DNA of 64,000 nucleotides from the NCBI GenBank assembly GCA_016789885.1, contig JAEUPZ010000033.1, positions 248,001 to 312,000 of the forward strand. The letters are read 5' to 3'. This document shows positions 1,728-10,692 of the stretch, piece after piece. The DNA is from Chromatiales bacterium (GTDB lineage: Bacteria > Pseudomonadota > Gammaproteobacteria > Steroidobacterales > GCA-2729495). Numbering within the stretch: position 1 is the stretch's first letter; each line of letters starts with the position of its first letter. Below the pieces are notes generated by a model, which saw only the letters and a list, made by a program, of their open reading frames with translations, searched no databases and was not told the DNA's origin. Position numbers and translations under genes: made by a program.

Positions 1728-1871
1728 GGAGCGGGATGGGCGAGGGGTTGGGGCGCGCCACGTTGCCCGCAAGGCGGTGGGGCGTCAACGGTCGCGTTGT
1801 GGCGCCCGGACGCCGGCCGCTATTCTTTGTCGTATACAGCGGTACCGTACTGCCGCTGCCGGGAGTCTCCC

Positions 1872-2624
1872 TTGGAGCCGGGTTTCGTCATCCTGCTGGC
1901 GGCGGCCTTCGTCGTCGTGGCGGCGCTCTACTCGAGCGTCGGCCACGCCGGCGCGTCGGGCTATCTCGCCGTCATGGCGCTGCTGGGCGTCGCGCCCGCC
2001 GTCATGCGGCCCACGGCCCTGGCGCTGAACATCCTCGTGGCGAGCGTCACGGTGCTGCGCTTCGCCCGGGCCGGGTACTTCTCATGGCGCGGCCTGTGGC
2101 CCTTCCTGCTGGGCTCCGTGCCGCTGGCGGCGGTTGGTGGTGCCTGGCGCCTGGCCGACCGCGCGTACTACCTGGCCGTGGCCTTCGCCCTGGTGGTGGC
2201 GGCAATGACCGTGGCCCGCCGCGCCTGGCGGTCGGTGCCGCTGGACGATGATCGCGTGGTGGCGCCGCCCCTCGGGCCGGCCATCGCCATCGGCGCCCTG
2301 ATCGGCCTGCTCTCGGGACTCACCGGGACGGGGGGCGGCATCTTCCTGAGCCCGGTGATCCTGCTGATGCACTGGGCCGGTCCGCGTCAGACCTCGGGCA
2401 TTTCCGCGCCGTTCATCCTCGCCAATTCGAGTGTCGCGCTGCTTGCGGGCTCGGCCACCTGGGCGTCGATACCGGCCGAGCTGCCGGTCTATCTCGTGGC
2501 GGTACTGGCCGGTGCCGGACTCGGCACCTGGCTCGGGGTCAAGCGGCTGTCGCCGCGCGCGCTGCTCGTGCTGCTGGCCGTGGTGCTGGCCATCGCCGCC
2601 GGCAAGCTCGTGCTGACGGGCTGA
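1872..2624 (+). CDS. TauE/SafE family membrane permease
   Basis: A 250-residue, almost entirely hydrophobic protein with about eight predicted membrane segments. The two half-repeats characteristic of TauE/SafE are visible: a first with SSVGHAGASGYLAVMALLGV and a second with GLLSGLTGTGGGIFLSPVIL. The family moves sulfur-containing or other oxyanions and organic anions; the substrate here is unknown. The frame is open far upstream but without membrane character, so I place the start at TTG 1872, which has GGGAG at 1861-1865 at proper spacing. The gene converges on the ModE-type regulator, and the two stop codons are separated by a 40-bp tandem repeat. Confidence 0.85.
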   Translation: MEPGFVILLAAAFVVVAALYSSVGHAGASGYLAVMALLGVAPAVMRPTALALNILVASVTVLRFARAGYFSWRGLWPFLLGSVPLAAVGGAWRLADRAYYLAVAFALVVAAMTVARRAWRSVPLDDDRVVAPPLGPAIAIGALIGLLSGLTGTGGGIFLSPVILLMHWAGPRQTSGISAPFILANSSVALLAGSATWASIPAELPVYLVAVLAGAGLGTWLGVKRLSPRALLVLLAVVLAIAAGKLVLTG

Positions 2625-2651
2625 CGGGCTGACGGGCTGACGGGCTGACGG
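2612..2651. repeat. Five perfect tandem copies of an 8-bp unit (GCTGACGG)
   Basis: The unit GCTGACGG is repeated five times without mismatch. The array begins inside the last four codons of the TauE/SafE gene, carries its TGA stop, and ends one base before the stop codon of the convergent regulator gene. A slippage-prone short tandem repeat of this kind could change copy number, but since it lies beyond or at both stop codons the effect on the proteins would be small. Confidence 0.95.
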
Positions 2652-3050
2652 TCAGCCGGTCCTGCGGCGTGGTGCCTTGCCCGGTCGCGCCGTCACGCTG
2701 CGCACCCGCTTCGCGGCTGGCTGCGCCAGCTCGAAGGCCGCGAACTGCTCCGCCGCCAGCTTGTCCACGCTCGCCTCGAGACGGCGGAACCGCTGCACCA
2801 GTTCGGCGCCCAGCGGCGTGACCTGGACCCCGCCGCCACCGCGCCCGCCGACGGATGCCGTGGCCAGCGGGCTCGTGAACGTCCTGTTGAGGCTGTCGAG
2901 CAGGACCCACGCGCGGCGGTAGCTCATGCCGAGCTGTCGCGCCGCCTCCGACAGCGAACCGCTGTCGGCAATGGCCTCGAGCAGTTCGATCTTGCCCGGG
3001 CCGATGGCGGCGCCCGGCGCCAGATCGATGCGCAGCTTGACCTTGCCCAT
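2652..3050 (-). CDS. ModE-type winged-helix regulator, DNA-binding domain only
   Basis: A 132-residue protein matching the N-terminal LysR-like/ModE winged-helix domain: IELLEAIADSGSLSEAARQL is the helix-turn-helix entry, SYRRAWVLLDSLN the recognition region, and a Gly-rich stretch followed by VTPLGAELV the wing. It ends with a basic tail and has no C-terminal molybdate-binding TOBE (mop) domains, so any ligand sensing must differ from E. coli ModE. It is transcribed away from the TonB receptor gene, and a perfect inverted repeat of ModE-operator type lies between them, predicting that it regulates the receptor and itself. Single-domain ModE-like proteins are known in many proteobacteria; the target here is inferred. 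Confidence 0.88.
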   Translation of the reverse strand: MGKVKLRIDLAPGAAIGPGKIELLEAIADSGSLSEAARQLGMSYRRAWVLLDSLNRTFTSPLATASVGGRGGGGVQVTPLGAELVQRFRRLEASVDKLAAEQFAAFELAQPAAKRVRSVTARPGKAPRRRTG

Positions 3051-3125
3051 CCGCTCGCTCCGCTGAGGCGCGAATCATAGCGCAGGCCGTCCGCTGGTCC
3101 CGGGACGCTGGACACTGCAGCGGAA

Positions 3126-3149
3126 CGCTATATACCATCAGATATAGCG
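3126..3149. promoter_or_regulatory. ModE-like operator palindrome
   Basis: Perfect inverted repeat CGCTATAT-N8-ATATAGCG in the 126-bp gap between the divergent regulator and TonB receptor genes. The arms strongly resemble the E. coli ModE operator, which has CGnTATAT half-sites around a short spacer. It is markedly AT-rich against a ~70 % GC background. It ends 27 bp before the receptor's GTG start and so would overlap or closely follow its promoter, consistent with repression by ligand-bound regulator. Confidence 0.8.
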
Positions 3150-3176
3150 CAAGACCCGGGCGCTGGAGGAGACGCC

Positions 3177-5276
3177 GTGCAACCTGCCTTACCCGGCCGA
3201 CGGTGGCCCGCCGGTGCTGCCGTGGCCGGCCTCGCCGTGCTGCTGGCCGATCCGGCCGTCGCCCTGGACGATGCCCCGCGCGCCGACCTGCCCACCATCG
3301 AAGTCATCGGCCGCCGCCGGGTGCCGGGCCCGCTCGACGCCGTCACCATCGACGCCGAGGCGCTGCAGTCGGCAACGACGCGGAACCTGGCCCAGGCGAT
3401 GCAGCTGGTGCCCGGCGTCACCGTCAACCGCATCGGGGCCCGCAACGAGGCGCTGATCAAGCTGCGCGGCTTCGACTCGCGGCAGGTGCCGCTCTTCATC
3501 GATGGTGTGCCGGTCTACGTGCCCTACGACGGCAACATCGACCTGTCGCGGCTGGCAGTGGGCGACATCCAGTCGCTGCGGGTCACCCGCGGTGGCGGCT
3601 CGGTGCTGTACGGGCCGAACGCGCTGGGCGGGACGATCAACGTGGTCACCGCCCGTCCCGAGGCAGGCCTCTCCCTCTACACCCGCGCGAGCCAGACCCT
3701 CGATGATTCGCTGGATGCGCAGCGCAGCGAAGTCGGCGGCCGCATCGGCTACGCCGGCGAGCACTGGTACGTGCAGGCATCGGCGTTCCAGCTCGACAGC
3801 GACTTCTTCCGGCTCTCCGATGACTTCCGCGTGCCGGATCCGACCTTCGATGTCTTCCCCGGCCAGCCGGGGGTCCAGCCCACCGAGGACGGCGGCCGGC
3901 GCGGGAACTCGGCCTTCAGCGACCTCACGACCTCGGTGAAGCTCGGCTACGTGGCCGATGGTGGCGCGGAGTTCGCCGTCGGCTACGTGCGGCTCGACGG
4001 CGAGAAGCAGAACCCGCCGTACATCGGCCCGCCGCCCAACGCGGGCGGGGTGCGCCCGAGGTTCTGGCGCTGGCCGTACTACGACAAGGAGACGTTCTAC
4101 GCCGTCGGTGCCGTACCCGTGGCCGGTGACGGCTGGGTGCGTGGGCGGGCGTACTACGACACCTTCCAGAACCTGCTCCGCTCCTTCGACAACGATACCT
4201 ACACGACACAGAACACGCCGCCCGCGTTCAACAGCGCCTACGACGACTACACCTGGGGCGGCAGCCTCGAGACCGAACTGTCGACCTGGGGAGACTCCGG
4301 CACGACGCGGGCCATCGCCCACTTCAAGCAGGACGTGCACCGCGAGACCGACGATGACGATGCGCCGCTCGAGCGGATCGAGGACCAGACCTGGTCCTTT
4401 GCCCTCGAGCACGAGCACCGCGTCACCGGGGCCCTGACGCTGACCGGCGGCGTGGCCTACAACATCCTCAACGCGCAGCGCGCCGAGAACAACGCCAACG
4501 GCGTGCTGGTGCCCTTCGATCTTGAGGACGAATCGGCCTTCAACCTGCAGCTGGGTGCGGGCTACGAGGTGGGCGAGTGGCTGCTGGGGGTGAATCTCTC
4601 CCGCAAGACGCGCTTCCCGACGCTGAAGGACCGCTACTCGTTCCGGCTCGGCTCCGCGCTGCCCAATCCCGGGCTGCAGGACGAGGTCGCCGAACAGGTC
4701 GAACTGTCGGCCCGGGGCGGCACCGCCGGTTTCGACGTGGGCCTGACGCTCTTCGGCAGCTGGCTCGACGACGCCATCGCCACCGTGGCGCTGCCCGACT
4801 CCGCCTGCACGTCGCCGCCCTGCACCCAGCTGCAGAATGTCGGCCGGCAGCGGCATCTCGGCGGCGAGCTGTCCCTGTCCCGCGCGCTGCCGGTGGTCGG
4901 CAACGTGTCGCTGGACTACGCCTACGTGTCCATCAGGAACCAGGAGCAGCCCCTGCTGCCCACCTACACGCCGCGGCACACGCTGCGCGCCGCGAGCCGC
5001 ACGCCGCTCGGTGACAAGGCCCGGCTGCTGGTGGAGCTGCGCAGCGAGAGCGGCCGCTACAGTTCCAGCGGCGGGCCGCAGAACCCGGTCGTGCGCAGCA
5101 CGGCCGGCTTCGGCCTGCTCAACGCCGGCGTCGAATGGGACGTCTGGCGGAACCTCCGGCTCCTGGTCGAGGCCGCGAACCTCACCGACCGGCTCTACGC
5201 CATCGACGACGGTTTTCCGGAGGCCGGGCGCACGTACTCGGCGACGCTGGTCTGGCGTCAGGGAGAAACCCGGTGA
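3177..5276 (+). CDS. TonB-dependent outer-membrane receptor
   Basis: A 699-residue outer-membrane active transporter. It has a signal peptide (cleavage near VALA-DDAP), a TonB-box-like segment (LPTIEVIGRRR, residues ~40), a plug domain with the usual VPGVTVNRIG, IKLRGFDSR, FIDGVPVY and GGGSVLYGPNALGGTINVVT signatures, and a 22-strand barrel region to the C-terminus with a TonB-receptor-like ending (EAANLTDRLYAIDDG). A Cys pair (CTSPPC, about 544-549) sits in an extracellular-loop position. The start is GTG 3177 behind GGAGGA. Length and pattern fit siderophore/metal receptors, but the ModE-like operator in front suggests a molybdate-, tungstate- or chelated-metal substrate. The next gene overlaps its stop codon. 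Confidence 0.93.
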   Translation: MQPALPGRRWPAGAAVAGLAVLLADPAVALDDAPRADLPTIEVIGRRRVPGPLDAVTIDAEALQSATTRNLAQAMQLVPGVTVNRIGARNEALIKLRGFDSRQVPLFIDGVPVYVPYDGNIDLSRLAVGDIQSLRVTRGGGSVLYGPNALGGTINVVTARPEAGLSLYTRASQTLDDSLDAQRSEVGGRIGYAGEHWYVQASAFQLDSDFFRLSDDFRVPDPTFDVFPGQPGVQPTEDGGRRGNSAFSDLTTSVKLGYVADGGAEFAVGYVRLDGEKQNPPYIGPPPNAGGVRPRFWRWPYYDKETFYAVGAVPVAGDGWVRGRAYYDTFQNLLRSFDNDTYTTQNTPPAFNSAYDDYTWGGSLETELSTWGDSGTTRAIAHFKQDVHRETDDDDAPLERIEDQTWSFALEHEHRVTGALTLTGGVAYNILNAQRAENNANGVLVPFDLEDESAFNLQLGAGYEVGEWLLGVNLSRKTRFPTLKDRYSFRLGSALPNPGLQDEVAEQVELSARGGTAGFDVGLTLFGSWLDDAIATVALPDSACTSPPCTQLQNVGRQRHLGGELSLSRALPVVGNVSLDYAYVSIRNQEQPLLPTYTPRHTLRAASRTPLGDKARLLVELRSESGRYSSSGGPQNPVVRSTAGFGLLNAGVEWDVWRNLRLLVEAANLTDRLYAIDDGFPEAGRTYSATLVWRQGETR

Positions 5277-5851
5277 GGTTCCAGAAGATCATGATCCCCG
5301 CTGCGAGTCTGCCGACCGCCGTACTGGCCGGCCTGCTGGCCGGCGTCGCTCCGCCTGTCGCCGCCCGGGCGCCGCAGGCGACCCCGCCTGCCTCGACGGA
5401 CGATCGCTGCAGCCACTTCCGCTTTCCCGCTGACGCGGAGCGGCGCCTGTTCGCCGGGCCTGTGGGCACCACGGCTGTTGCGGGCAGACGTCCGGGACGC
5501 GGACCCGTGCTCGCCCTTGGCCGGCTCTACCAGCTCAGGCTGAAACCGTTCCCCGGTGTCCGGCTCGCGGGACCGCCCTTCGTGGATCCCGGTCCCGGCA
5601 GCTACGCGGGCCTTGCCCGGTTCACGGTGCCGGCCACGGGCCGCTACCGGGTGTCCGCCGATGGCGCCGTGTGGCTCGACCTCGTGGTCGATGGCGTCAG
5701 CCGGCCGGCGCTGGGCTTCAGCGGGAGTCCGGGCTGCTTCGCGCCCCACAAGATCGTCGTCTTCGCCCTCGAGGCGGGGCAGGACGTCGTCGTGCAGGTG
5801 ACTGGGAGTGGCCGCGAGACGCTGCGGCTCGGGTTGACGGCAGAGCAGTGA
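5273..5851 (+). CDS. Exported protein of unknown function, coupled to the TonB receptor
   Basis: A 192-residue protein starting at GTG 5273, which overlaps the TGA of the receptor (GTGA), with GGGAG upstream; translation is likely coupled. The N-terminus is a signal peptide (hydrophobic stretch around residues 8-30 ending AARA). The mature part contains a region reading as a beta-sandwich (FTVPATGRYRVSADGAVWL, residues ~118-136) and two Cys, one near the start of the mature chain and one at FAPH region. I do not recognise the family. A periplasmic substrate-handling role next to the receptor is inference from the coupling alone. Confidence 0.8.
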   Translation: MRFQKIMIPAASLPTAVLAGLLAGVAPPVAARAPQATPPASTDDRCSHFRFPADAERRLFAGPVGTTAVAGRRPGRGPVLALGRLYQLRLKPFPGVRLAGPPFVDPGPGSYAGLARFTVPATGRYRVSADGAVWLDLVVDGVSRPALGFSGSPGCFAPHKIVVFALEAGQDVVVQVTGSGRETLRLGLTAEQ

Positions 5852-5864
5852 CGGCGGGGTAAGG

Positions 5865-8126
5865 CTAGCGGGCCTCGGCCAGCGCCGTCGTGCGGCCGGC
5901 GGTGAACGCCTCGCGGACGTGGGCCGCGAACTGCGCTGCCGGCTGGAAGCCGACGACGCGCCGGTTCGCCTGTTCGGTGCCGTCCGGCGTGAAGAAGACG
6001 ATGGTCGGCGGGCCGACGATGCCGAAGCGCGCCATCAGCGCCTGGTCGTCGCCGTCCACTGCGGTGACGTCGGCCTGCAGCGTGATGGCCCGGGCCAGTT
6101 CCGCGCGCACGTCGGGGTGGGGGAAGGTGTATTCCTCCATCTCCTTGCACGAGGCGCACCAGTCGGCATAGAAGTCGAGCATCAGCGGCCGGCCTTCGCT
6201 GCCGGCCCGTGCGAGCTCGCGCTCGAAGTCGGCGACGGTCTTGATGCGCCTGAAGAGCGGGGCCCTGGCCGCCGTCTCGCCAGCGCCGCCGGCGGCGACC
6301 GTCGTGAACTGCAGTGGCCGCAGCGGGTTCTCGTTGCCGGCCAGCGCGCCGACCAGCAGCGCGCTGCCGTAGATGAGCGCGACGATGCCGAAGGCCTTGC
6401 CGAGCTTGCGCCCGGTGGGCGCCGCGCCGTCCACCGGCGCGAAGGCGCCGAGGAACACGCCGCCGACCACCAGCAGCACGGCCCAGAGCGCCAGCGTGAT
6501 CGTGCCTGGCCACAGGCGGTCGAGCATCCACACCGCCATGGCCAGCATCAGCAGGCCGAAGACGGTCTTCACCGACACCATCCAGGCGCCGGCCTTCGGC
6601 AGCAGCCGCCCGGCCGAAGCGCCGAGCACCAGCAGCGGAATGCCCATGCCGAAGGCGAGGGCGAAGAGCGCCAGCGAGCCGCGGGCGATGTCGCCCGTTC
6701 GGGCGATGACGGTGAGCGCCGCCACCAGGGGCGGCGTCACGCAGGTGGTGACCACGGCCGCCGAGATCATGCCCATGATGCCGGCGCCGACGAAGCTGCC
6801 GGACCGCTGCTGGCCCGAGAGCGTGGCGAGCCGGGTCTGGATGCCGGCCGGCATCTGCAGCTCGTAGAGCCCGAACATCGACAGCGCCAGGGCCACGAAC
6901 AGGAGCGCCACGCCGACGATGACCCAGGTCTGCTGGAACACCGCCTGCACCTGGGCGCCGGCCGCGGCGACGATGGCGCCGAGGGCCGTGTAGGTCACGG
7001 CCATGCCCAGCACGTAGGCCAGCGACAGCAGGAAGCTCCGACCCGTCGAGCCGTTGCCCTGGCCCACGACGATGCCGGAGAGGATCGGGTACATGGGCAG
7101 GCAGCAGGGCGTGAACGAGAGCAGCAGGCCTAGCCCTGCGAACATCAGCATGACGAGCCCGATGTTGCCGTCGCGGATCAGCTCGAAGAGCTGGTCCTGC
7201 TCGCTGACGGGCTCGCCCGCGGCCGGCGGCGGCGAACCGGTGGCCTCGGGCAGTGCGAGCTCCACGGTAACGGCCTGGGGCGGGTAGCAGATGCTGTCGG
7301 TCTTGCAGCCCTGGAAGGCCAGCGTGAACGGTGCGGTCAGCGCCGCGGGGCTTGCCCGGGTCAGCGGCACCGTCATGGTGACCTCGTCGTAGAAGACGAG
7401 GGTGTCGCCGTACTCCTCGTCGTTGAACGGCGTGCCCGGTGGCAGCGTCGGCGTGCCGGCCTGCACGCCGTTCGCGTTGCTCGTCAGGCCAAGCGTGTGC
7501 CGGTACAGGTAGTAGCCCGGCTCGATGCTGAAGTGCACCGCCACCGAGAAGGGGTCGACGACCTCGATGCGGTGGCGGAAGGCCTGCGCCACCGGCAGGG
7601 GCTGGTCGACCCCCGCGGCGCCACCGGCCGACCGGCCGAGCAGGGCCTCGAGCCGGCTGCTGCCACCGCCGGTTGCCGCGGCCGGCAGGTCGACCTTCGC
7701 CACCCAGGTCTGCGGCGGGTAACAGAGGCCGATGTCGGCGCAGCCCTGGGACTTGATGGCGATCTCGACGGGGCCGCCGCCGGCGGGGCCTGCCGCCACC
7801 GGCAGCGGGATGGCCGTCTGCCCCCGGTAGATGTGCATGAGCCCGAAGAACTCGTCCTCGTGGGGCTCGCCTTCGGGGAAGCGCGGCGCATCGAGCACGA
7901 GCCCCGGCGTGCGGGCCTCGAAGCTCATGCGCTCCTGGTAGAGGTAGTAGCCGGGGAGGATGTCCCAGCGCACGACGATGTCGCCGCCCTCGGCGGCAAC
8001 GGTATAGCGGAAGGCCTGGTCGGGCTTGACCGGGTCGTCGGCCGCGGGCGCCGACAGCGACGCCAGGACGGCGGCGAGGCCGGCCAGCCAGCGGAAGCCA
8101 GTGCCTTTCCAGCGCTTGTTGCTCAT
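5865..8126 (-). CDS. dsbD: Thiol:disulfide interchange protein DsbD with duplicated N-terminal domain
   Basis: Inner-membrane electron conduit that takes electrons from cytoplasmic thioredoxin and delivers them to periplasmic thiol proteins. It has a signal peptide, two consecutive DsbD-alpha immunoglobulin-like domains (about 32-150 and 180-292), an eight-helix membrane domain with FTPCCLPMYP and TTCVTPPL, and a C-terminal thioredoxin domain with YADWCASCKEM. Both alpha copies keep their Cys pair (Cys129/Cys135 in QGCADIGLCYPP; Cys274/Cys280 in QGCKTDSICYPP). At 753 residues it is ~190 longer than the E. coli protein because of the extra alpha domain. The ATG at 8126 overlaps the cutA TGA (ATGA). 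Confidence 0.95.
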   Translation of the reverse strand: MSNKRWKGTGFRWLAGLAAVLASLSAPAADDPVKPDQAFRYTVAAEGGDIVVRWDILPGYYLYQERMSFEARTPGLVLDAPRFPEGEPHEDEFFGLMHIYRGQTAIPLPVAAGPAGGGPVEIAIKSQGCADIGLCYPPQTWVAKVDLPAAATGGGSSRLEALLGRSAGGAAGVDQPLPVAQAFRHRIEVVDPFSVAVHFSIEPGYYLYRHTLGLTSNANGVQAGTPTLPPGTPFNDEEYGDTLVFYDEVTMTVPLTRASPAALTAPFTLAFQGCKTDSICYPPQAVTVELALPEATGSPPPAAGEPVSEQDQLFELIRDGNIGLVMLMFAGLGLLLSFTPCCLPMYPILSGIVVGQGNGSTGRSFLLSLAYVLGMAVTYTALGAIVAAAGAQVQAVFQQTWVIVGVALLFVALALSMFGLYELQMPAGIQTRLATLSGQQRSGSFVGAGIMGMISAAVVTTCVTPPLVAALTVIARTGDIARGSLALFALAFGMGIPLLVLGASAGRLLPKAGAWMVSVKTVFGLLMLAMAVWMLDRLWPGTITLALWAVLLVVGGVFLGAFAPVDGAAPTGRKLGKAFGIVALIYGSALLVGALAGNENPLRPLQFTTVAAGGAGETAARAPLFRRIKTVADFERELARAGSEGRPLMLDFYADWCASCKEMEEYTFPHPDVRAELARAITLQADVTAVDGDDQALMARFGIVGPPTIVFFTPDGTEQANRRVVGFQPAAQFAAHVREAFTAGRTTALAEAR

Positions 8127-8452
8127 GCTCGTGTTGCCTGCCTGACCCAGTCCATGTAGCGCGCCGAGCCTGCGACCACGGGCAGGGCCAGCACTTCCGG
8201 CAGCTCGTAGGGGTGCTGCACGGTGATCAGGCCTTCGACCTGCCCATAGCGGTCGGCCGTGGTCTTGATGGCGAGGAGGACCTCGGCATCGTCCTGCAGC
8301 TGCCCGTCCCAGCGGTACAGCGACCGCACGCCGGGGACGCGATTCACGCACGCCGCCAGTCCCTGTTCAACGAGGGCGGTCGCAATTCGGGTGGCGACGG
8401 CCTCGTCGGGGCAGGTGCAGAGCACGAGCAGCAGGTCGGCCGGGGCGGTCAT
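8123..8452 (-). CDS. cutA: Divalent cation tolerance protein CutA
   Basis: A 109-residue CutA1 protein, the normal size for this trimeric ferredoxin-like-fold family. Typical motifs are LVLCTCPDEAVATRIA at the start, AACVNRVPGVRSLYRWDG, and EVLLAIKTTADRYGQVE-I-HPYELPEVLALPV. Its precise role is unsettled in the field (copper tolerance was the original phenotype). The gene overlaps dsbD by four bases and the pair is also adjacent in E. coli and Pseudomonas. Confidence 0.96.
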   Translation of the reverse strand: MTAPADLLLVLCTCPDEAVATRIATALVEQGLAACVNRVPGVRSLYRWDGQLQDDAEVLLAIKTTADRYGQVEGLITVQHPYELPEVLALPVVAGSARYMDWVRQATRA

Positions 8453-8553
8453 GGGGCGATTATGTCAGGGGATGCCGGGCCAGTCCGTGCGGTGCCATGG
8501 GCATTCCGGGGCTGCTGCCGGGCTGTCCGGCCGGCCTAAATGACCCTGCCCCC

Positions 8554-8607
8554 TTGTAATCGGGCGCCCGATCCCTATAGTTGGCAGCCGTTCGCGGCGA
8601 GTGCTAA
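8554..8607 (+). promoter_or_regulatory. groESL promoter with CIRCE-like HrcA operator
   Basis: TTGTAA (8554-8559) and TATAGT (8576-8581) with a 16-bp spacer form a good sigma-70 promoter; the same region, CTTGTA then CCCTATAG, also resembles a sigma-32 promoter. Directly after it is a CIRCE-type element: left arm TTGGCAGCC (8581-8589), 9-nt spacer, right arm GAGTGCTAA (8599-8607). The right arm is a perfect match to the consensus TTAGCACTC-N9-GAGTGCTAA and the left arm matches 6 of 9. This predicts repression by HrcA and perhaps additional heat-shock sigma control. Confidence 0.82.
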
Positions 8608-8723
8608 CGGTCCTTCGTGACCGCAAGGCCGCCGGCCCCGGGTCGGGTACCCAGGGCAGCCCTCCAGGGCCAACGAACTGAATTCACTGGTTTTTCAAGA
8701 ACCATCACCAGGAGAGACCTGAG

Positions 8724-10692
<1,969 letters not shown>

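Follow-up and report, generated by a model that had tools for sequence, protein, structure and literature searches.

A ModE-linked TonB-dependent receptor locus with a TauE/SafE permease as a candidate molybdenum uptake system in a Chromatiales bacterium

Results

The present analysis concerns a small gene cluster near the beginning of a 64-kb stretch of DNA from a Chromatiales bacterium (hereafter the window; positions 248,001 to 312,000 of contig JAEUPZ010000033.1, assembly GCA_016789885.1), in which a single-domain ModE-type regulator, a TonB-dependent outer-membrane receptor, an exported protein and a TauE/SafE (TSUP) family permease probably form a regulated uptake system for molybdenum or tungsten (Table 1). 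The permease gene is convergent with the regulator gene, from which the receptor gene is in turn divergent. A preliminary description of the same DNA had postulated four such genes together with a perfect ModE-form palindrome between regulator and receptor, and all of them were recovered where it had placed them: the palindrome is free of mismatches, the regulator is a ModE relative of one domain, the permease that converges on it exceeds the PF01925 cut-off, and the gene of the exported protein is coupled to that of the receptor by an overlap with its stop codon.

Table 1. Positions of genes and sequence features at the locus (numbering of the window)
Feature	Position	Strand	Basis or context
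TauE/SafE (TSUP) family permease, 250 aa	1872-2624	+	PF01925 full length
Tandem repeat, five exact head-to-tail GCTGACGG copies	2612-2651		end of permease gene
Single-domain ModE-type regulator, 132 aa	2652-3050	-	TIGR00637, PF00126
Sigma-70-like promoter TGGACA-18-TACCAT	3109-3138	+	overlaps perfect ModE operator
Perfect ModE operator CGCTATAT-N8-ATATAGCG	3126-3149		in the gap separating regulator and receptor genes (divergent)
Degenerate ModE-type operator, second site, CGCTATTCTTTGTCGTATACAGCG	1818-1841		30 bp upstream of permease start codon
TonB-dependent outer-membrane receptor, 699 aa	3177-5276	+	PF07715 and PF00593
Exported protein, 192 aa	5273-5851	+	start overlaps receptor stop

The operator form of the ModE regulon, CGNTATAT-N8-ATATANCG, occurs in perfect form in front of the receptor operon (CGCTATATACCATCAGATATAGCG, 27 bp before the receptor start) and in degenerate form in front of the permease gene, where the site at 1818-1841, which the preliminary description had overlooked, deviates from the ModE consensus at three positions. 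By chance, 0.01 matches with at most three mismatches are expected in the window. In the 3.38-Mb genome, CGYTATAT-N8-ATATARCG is matched at this threshold in three places, namely at the two sites above and at C16:12106; the latter lies inside a coding frame, equals the control rate and was rejected as a third genomic site. A matrix to which other genomes contributed 55 sites close to receptor genes, with the window held out, assigned 33.3 bits to the site at 3126, 16.5 bits to that at 1818 and 2.7 bits to the next best position of the window, absolute values that are optimistic since the training sites were picked for their likeness to the consensus, with targets and controls being scored alike. 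Scores of at least 16.5 bits were absent from 3.4 Mb of sequence simulated with an identical dinucleotide composition. Since the site at 1818 is the second best in the window, has no equal in the simulation and is accompanied by a sole further genomic match that is intragenic, it is very probable that permease and receptor share a regulon, even though the permease gene lies outside the receptor operon. The perfect operator is overlapped by the only sigma-70-like promoter match between positions 1700 and 6000 (4.3 kb; mean of 0.1 in shuffled sequences), an arrangement that fits repression. A gene for a TlpA-like thioredoxin (1056-1727) is divergent from the permease gene and could share the site at 1818-1841.

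The regulator reaches 81.5 bits (E 3.6e-23) against the ModE winged-helix model TIGR00637, the curated cut-off of which is 98.5 bits, and the MSY..AW and GG..GGG residues are invariant among its relatives (alignment A3). With Pfam and NCBIfam profiles, no C-terminal Mop/TOBE domain was found on the protein; moreover, PF03459 (TOBE/Mop) has no match in the whole genome, compared with matches in 12 of 14 control genomes. As such, the regulator is left without a known partner domain for the binding of molybdate. It is thereby similar to the single-domain ModE of Desulfovibrio, which also comprises the ModE DNA-binding domain alone and has an unclear sensing mechanism, but which has CGGTCACG-N14-CGTGACCG as its predicted operator and occurs together with modABC (PMC545781).

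The receptor, which starts with GTG behind GGAGGAG and carries the motif DSRQVPLFIDGVPVYVPYDG, contains plug and beta-barrel domains that both score above cut-off. Its AlphaFold2 model (predicted template modelling score 0.85) is closest in fold to OprC, the TonB-dependent copper receptor of P. aeruginosa (template modelling score ~0.75 to this closest solved fold), followed by PirA and BtuB. Sequence identity to OprC, however, is 17%, and the copper-receptor model TIGR01778 is matched with 36 bits versus a cut-off of 472; the likeness between predicted and solved structure shows a class of fold, not a substrate. None of the listed NCBIfam receptor models with a named substrate was matched above cut-off, the best being a heme model with 88.9 bits versus 316.85. 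The exported protein matches no Pfam or NCBIfam family, and its Cys46 and Cys155 are invariant in an alignment of 13 members (A4). Its AlphaFold2 model consists of a beta-sandwich core (predicted local distance difference test score ~97) closest to the ColG collagen-binding domain (Z 10.4). This type of fold is widespread, and its matches in the PDB, collagen-binding and carbohydrate-binding modules among others, imply no function for the modelled protein. A relationship to PF00174 was considered and dismissed, as the fold search and Pfam yield a beta-sandwich and no family.

The host genome (3.38 Mb in 35 contigs, 95% complete) encodes MoaA above cut-off and contains five matches to PF00384, some of which may be relatives without molybdenum such as NuoG. 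Based on these matches, the organism very probably makes and uses the molybdenum cofactor (Moco). The absence of the usual modABC genes, which had been remarked upon for the window, extends to the genome as a whole: profile searches returned no match for ModA (TIGR01256), and all matches for ModB (TIGR02141) stayed under cut-off, with the best two being assigned to CysT and CysW by the curated models of these proteins. MOT1 was tried as a possible importer and rejected, its two matches both being under cut-off. With the ModE-modABC system of E. coli, the locus shares the ModE winged-helix domain, the operator form and the control of metal uptake; it differs in that the genome is without ModA, without ModB above cut-off and without a Mop domain on the regulator, and in that a TonB-dependent receptor and a TauE/SafE permease are present instead.

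We propose that the permease represents the inner-membrane importer of molybdate. It matches PF01925 over the full length (86.8 bits, cut-off 32.6), and its TTG start follows a ribosome-binding site, GGGAG, identified by eye. The full-length domain is shared with TSUP permeases such as TK06_RS10770, a TauE homologue of P. fluorescens that restores the growth of E. coli lacking cysA, which its authors read as sulfate uptake (PMC11535334), and this rescue sets a precedent for oxyanion import by the TauE/SafE family. What sets the window permease apart from family members elsewhere is its link to a ModE site and its proposed substrate, molybdate. Alternatively, the permease could be a transporter of sulfur oxyanions, or an exporter unrelated to molybdenum, with molybdate entering via CysTWA or SulP. 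Such a role would agree with the sulfite or sulfoacetate export by characterised TauE/SafE proteins (PMC11535334), with the presence of CysT and CysW in the genome and with a TauE gene that lies outside the receptor operon and whose homologues elsewhere lack ModE sites. It would, however, leave unaccounted for that the gene has a ModE-like site of its own, the second best in 64 kb, and that neither ModA nor a ModB above cut-off is encoded, and a TauE homologue is, as its authors read the rescue, able to import sulfate. We thus regard this alternative as unlikely, although by no means far-fetched. Between the convergent permease and regulator genes, the five GCTGACGG copies perhaps form a terminator; the repeat at 2612-2651 folds weakly better than shuffled sequences (z -1.8). 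On the other side of the cluster (5865-10692, by eye), a DsbD-like protein, a CutA-like protein and groES-groEL are ordinary neighbours.

Four genomes of a sister genus (L013-L016) each encode an orthologue of the receptor, 53-58% identical to it, together with a single-domain ModE and with modA, modB and modC. Each of these loci has two or three ModE-type sites, and three of the four also encode the exported protein (39-45%). More distant receptors (33-35%) in L019 and L020 are likewise accompanied by ModE, ModE sites and a PF00174 protein that is small and exported; L019 has modABC as well. The idea that the same genes and palindrome would recur in relatives hence holds for the receptor, ModE and the sites and largely for the exported protein, but modABC lies beside them and the arrangement with TauE is not repeated: among genomes of the same genus, a receptor of the family was found at E 1e-60 in G004 only, so that this arrangement is known from one genome. 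The simplest account would be that receptor, exported protein and regulator were retained in the lineage of the window, with a TauE/SafE permease serving where the relatives use ModABC.

In order to view the receptor family more broadly, a scan with the receptor alignment was evaluated for the best 80 of a larger number of matches, with one genome per species; related species are not independent in the resulting counts. The loci span Gamma-, Beta- and Deltaproteobacteria, Bacteroidota, Verrucomicrobia, Acidobacteria and Ignavibacteria. A ModE site with at most two mismatches is present at the receptor start in 40 of 80 loci; of the 68 sites of this kind in 1.57 Mb, 49 fall within 500 bp of a receptor start. 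When a leave-one-out matrix was used, a ModE-like site of at least 10 bits was found upstream of 58 of 81 receptors (window included) versus 26 of 2201 control regions. Further links to molybdenum come from neighbouring genes: ModE is encoded within 5 kb of the receptor in 47 loci, modABC is found within 9 kb in 16, and a link of any kind exists in 66 of 80.

Catechol siderophores of Azotobacter bind molybdenum as well as iron. One could hence speculate that the receptor imports a siderophore or another chelate mainly for iron, and that control by ModE reflects the binding of molybdenum by the same chelator. The closest curated models are indeed those of heme, siderophore and B12 receptors, all far under cut-off, FecCD-type ABC genes accompany some of the relatives, and a related cluster of E. 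coli, described below, is labelled as iron-related. Against this, Fur boxes with at most five mismatches occur upstream of 2 of 81 receptors (15 of 2201 controls), which contrasts with the 58 ModE-like sites; the best Fur match upstream in the window has mismatches at 10 of 19 positions, and the nearest relatives pair with modABC. Fur boxes that would point to a co-regulation of homologous receptors by iron, which the preliminary description had named as a finding that would speak against its interpretation, are rare, and a receptor primarily for iron appears improbable to us.

Which gene follows the receptor depends on the lineage. A member of the window's exported beta-sandwich family is found in 12 of 80 loci, and a small exported single-domain protein of the molybdopterin-fold family PF00174 near the receptor in 28 of 80, not always adjacent to it (e.g. 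L065 12037-12543; also L019 6555-7091). The latter proteins are perhaps periplasmic carriers of molybdenum or of the cofactor. Further partners 3' of the receptor are a solute-binding protein followed by a di-haem oxidoreductase (PF06537, for which the host genome has no match) and a MauG-like peroxidase, and the partner genes of relatives also include MoeA, FmdE, ModD and moaA/narGHJI. Since the partners vary and yet share a molybdenum theme, this suggests a common outer-membrane step that is joined to different later steps. The frequency of PF00174 proteins, together with moaA, moeA or ModD near other receptors, would also agree with a receptor that scavenges a pterin or a molybdopterin-type cofactor instead of molybdate. 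The common partners in transport and control are, however, the oxyanion-handling modABC and ModE, and the window itself has a permease for small anions and an exported protein without a PF00174 match, which makes the scavenging of a cofactor a very unlikely function here. In Deltaproteobacterial clusters (L058, L066, L085), the receptor occurs with a varying set of FmdE, methyltransferase, Peripla_BP_2, FecCD-type ABC transporter and MoeA; these clusters resemble the E. coli cluster, hinting at a chelate route.

The E. coli relative, recovered via tblastn of plasmid records, belongs to an operon of Peripla_BP_2, FecCD, ABC ATPase, methyltransferase, ModD and receptor genes. The receptor is 31% identical to that of the window over 650 residues and keeps GFDSRQVP..DGVP.YVPYDG. 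On two chromosomes (L159 and L160, 4509-4532), the first gene of the operon is preceded at a distance of ~25 bp by a perfect ModE operator, CGCTATATGTGTAAGTATATAGCG, whereas a plasmid copy (L157, 3368-3391) has one mismatch. Fur boxes with fewer than six mismatches were not detected at the operon promoter. The promoter region is present in 2098 of 5426 complete genomes (~39%), and 1399 records have at least 99% identity to the perfect version. ModE itself is encoded elsewhere in E. coli. In its content of modD, receptor and ABC genes, the operon matches the prrA-modD-yc73-fepC cluster, which has been described as possibly mediating iron uptake (PMC12928451). Equated with the operon on this basis, the cluster is like the locus of the window in its receptor with the diagnostic motif and in the perfect ModE operator upstream, and unlike it in the partners listed above and in the lack of a TauE gene. 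In P. aeruginosa 2017-45-169 (L156, 5822-8384), a receptor relative lies behind a perfect CGTTATGT palindrome (CGTTATGTAAAAAAATACATAACG) and adjoins a PF00174 protein, moaA and narGHJI.

Discussion

We consider it probable, with a likelihood of roughly 0.7, that the locus encodes a ModE-controlled uptake system for molybdenum (or tungsten) that spans both membranes and in which the place of ModABC is taken by a TSUP permease. Three independent lines of evidence argue for this, namely that (i) orthologues of the receptor sit with modABC and ModE sites; (ii) the receptor family is, across phyla, strongly enriched for ModE-like sites and for ModE and modABC neighbours, and Fur boxes are rare; and (iii) the genome very probably makes Moco without ModABC and the permease has a ModE-like site of its own. 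The regulated outer-membrane uptake of molybdate, tungstate or a chelate that had initially been suggested for the receptor is supported by the same evidence. Tungstate and molybdate are indistinguishable by these data.

When the metal is plentiful, the regulator would bind to the site at 3126-3149 and to the weaker one at 1818-1841 and thereby repress the receptor operon and the permease gene; when it is scarce, the regulator would leave both sites, and receptor and permease would be made. Molybdate or a molybdenum chelate could then be driven across the outer membrane through the receptor by TonB energy, with the exported protein probably assisting in the periplasm or at the surface, and the TauE/SafE permease would assume the role of ModABC in the transfer of the oxyanion across the inner membrane. 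Operator binding, repression, substrate, direction of import and the role of the exported protein are all elements that we infer from sequence comparisons.

Several observations weigh against this interpretation. The ModE domain of the regulator scores under its curated cut-off, and the genome lacks any Mop/TOBE domain that could sense molybdate. The CysTW and SulP-like proteins of the genome could carry molybdate, the incompleteness of the assembly has to be kept in mind, and 14 of 80 family loci are without a link to molybdenum by our simple criteria. The link of the permease to the system comes from one genome. Permease homologues in other Gammaproteobacteria (45-51% identical) have no ModE sites, ModE gene or family receptor within 1.5 kb, and these bare neighbourhoods provide no comparative support for the link. 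A TauE gene was found within ~10 kb of a family receptor in 1 of 80 loci (L068), where it lies 4 kb off and without a site, is probably incidental and was not taken as a link at the level of the family.

Porins are usually assumed to be the route of molybdate across the outer membrane. It is conceivable, although we put this forward tentatively and as somewhat less than an even chance, that the receptors discussed here represent a cross-phylum family dedicated to molybdenum, which they may take up in complex with a chelator of secreted or foreign origin, and that this family has been overlooked or labelled as iron-related, including the prrA cluster of ~39% of complete E. coli genomes. The locus of the window would then be a reduced form with a TSUP permease for the ABC transporter and sensing by a Mop-less ModE. 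In this context, a review of TonB-dependent transporters (PMC11658791) leaves molybdenum unmentioned, and we found no outer-membrane receptor for molybdenum in the open-access papers searched; the classic survey of ModE sites (Studholme and Pau 2003), which is outside that scope, may mention receptors.

The occurrence of a single-domain ModE in a genome without Mop domains makes metal sensing by such regulators directly testable. If the proposed dedication of the receptor family to molybdenum is true, active uptake of molybdenum across the outer membrane would be common in Proteobacteria, Bacteroidota, Verrucomicrobia and Acidobacteria. A new label would then also be due for the E. coli cluster so far described as possibly serving iron uptake.

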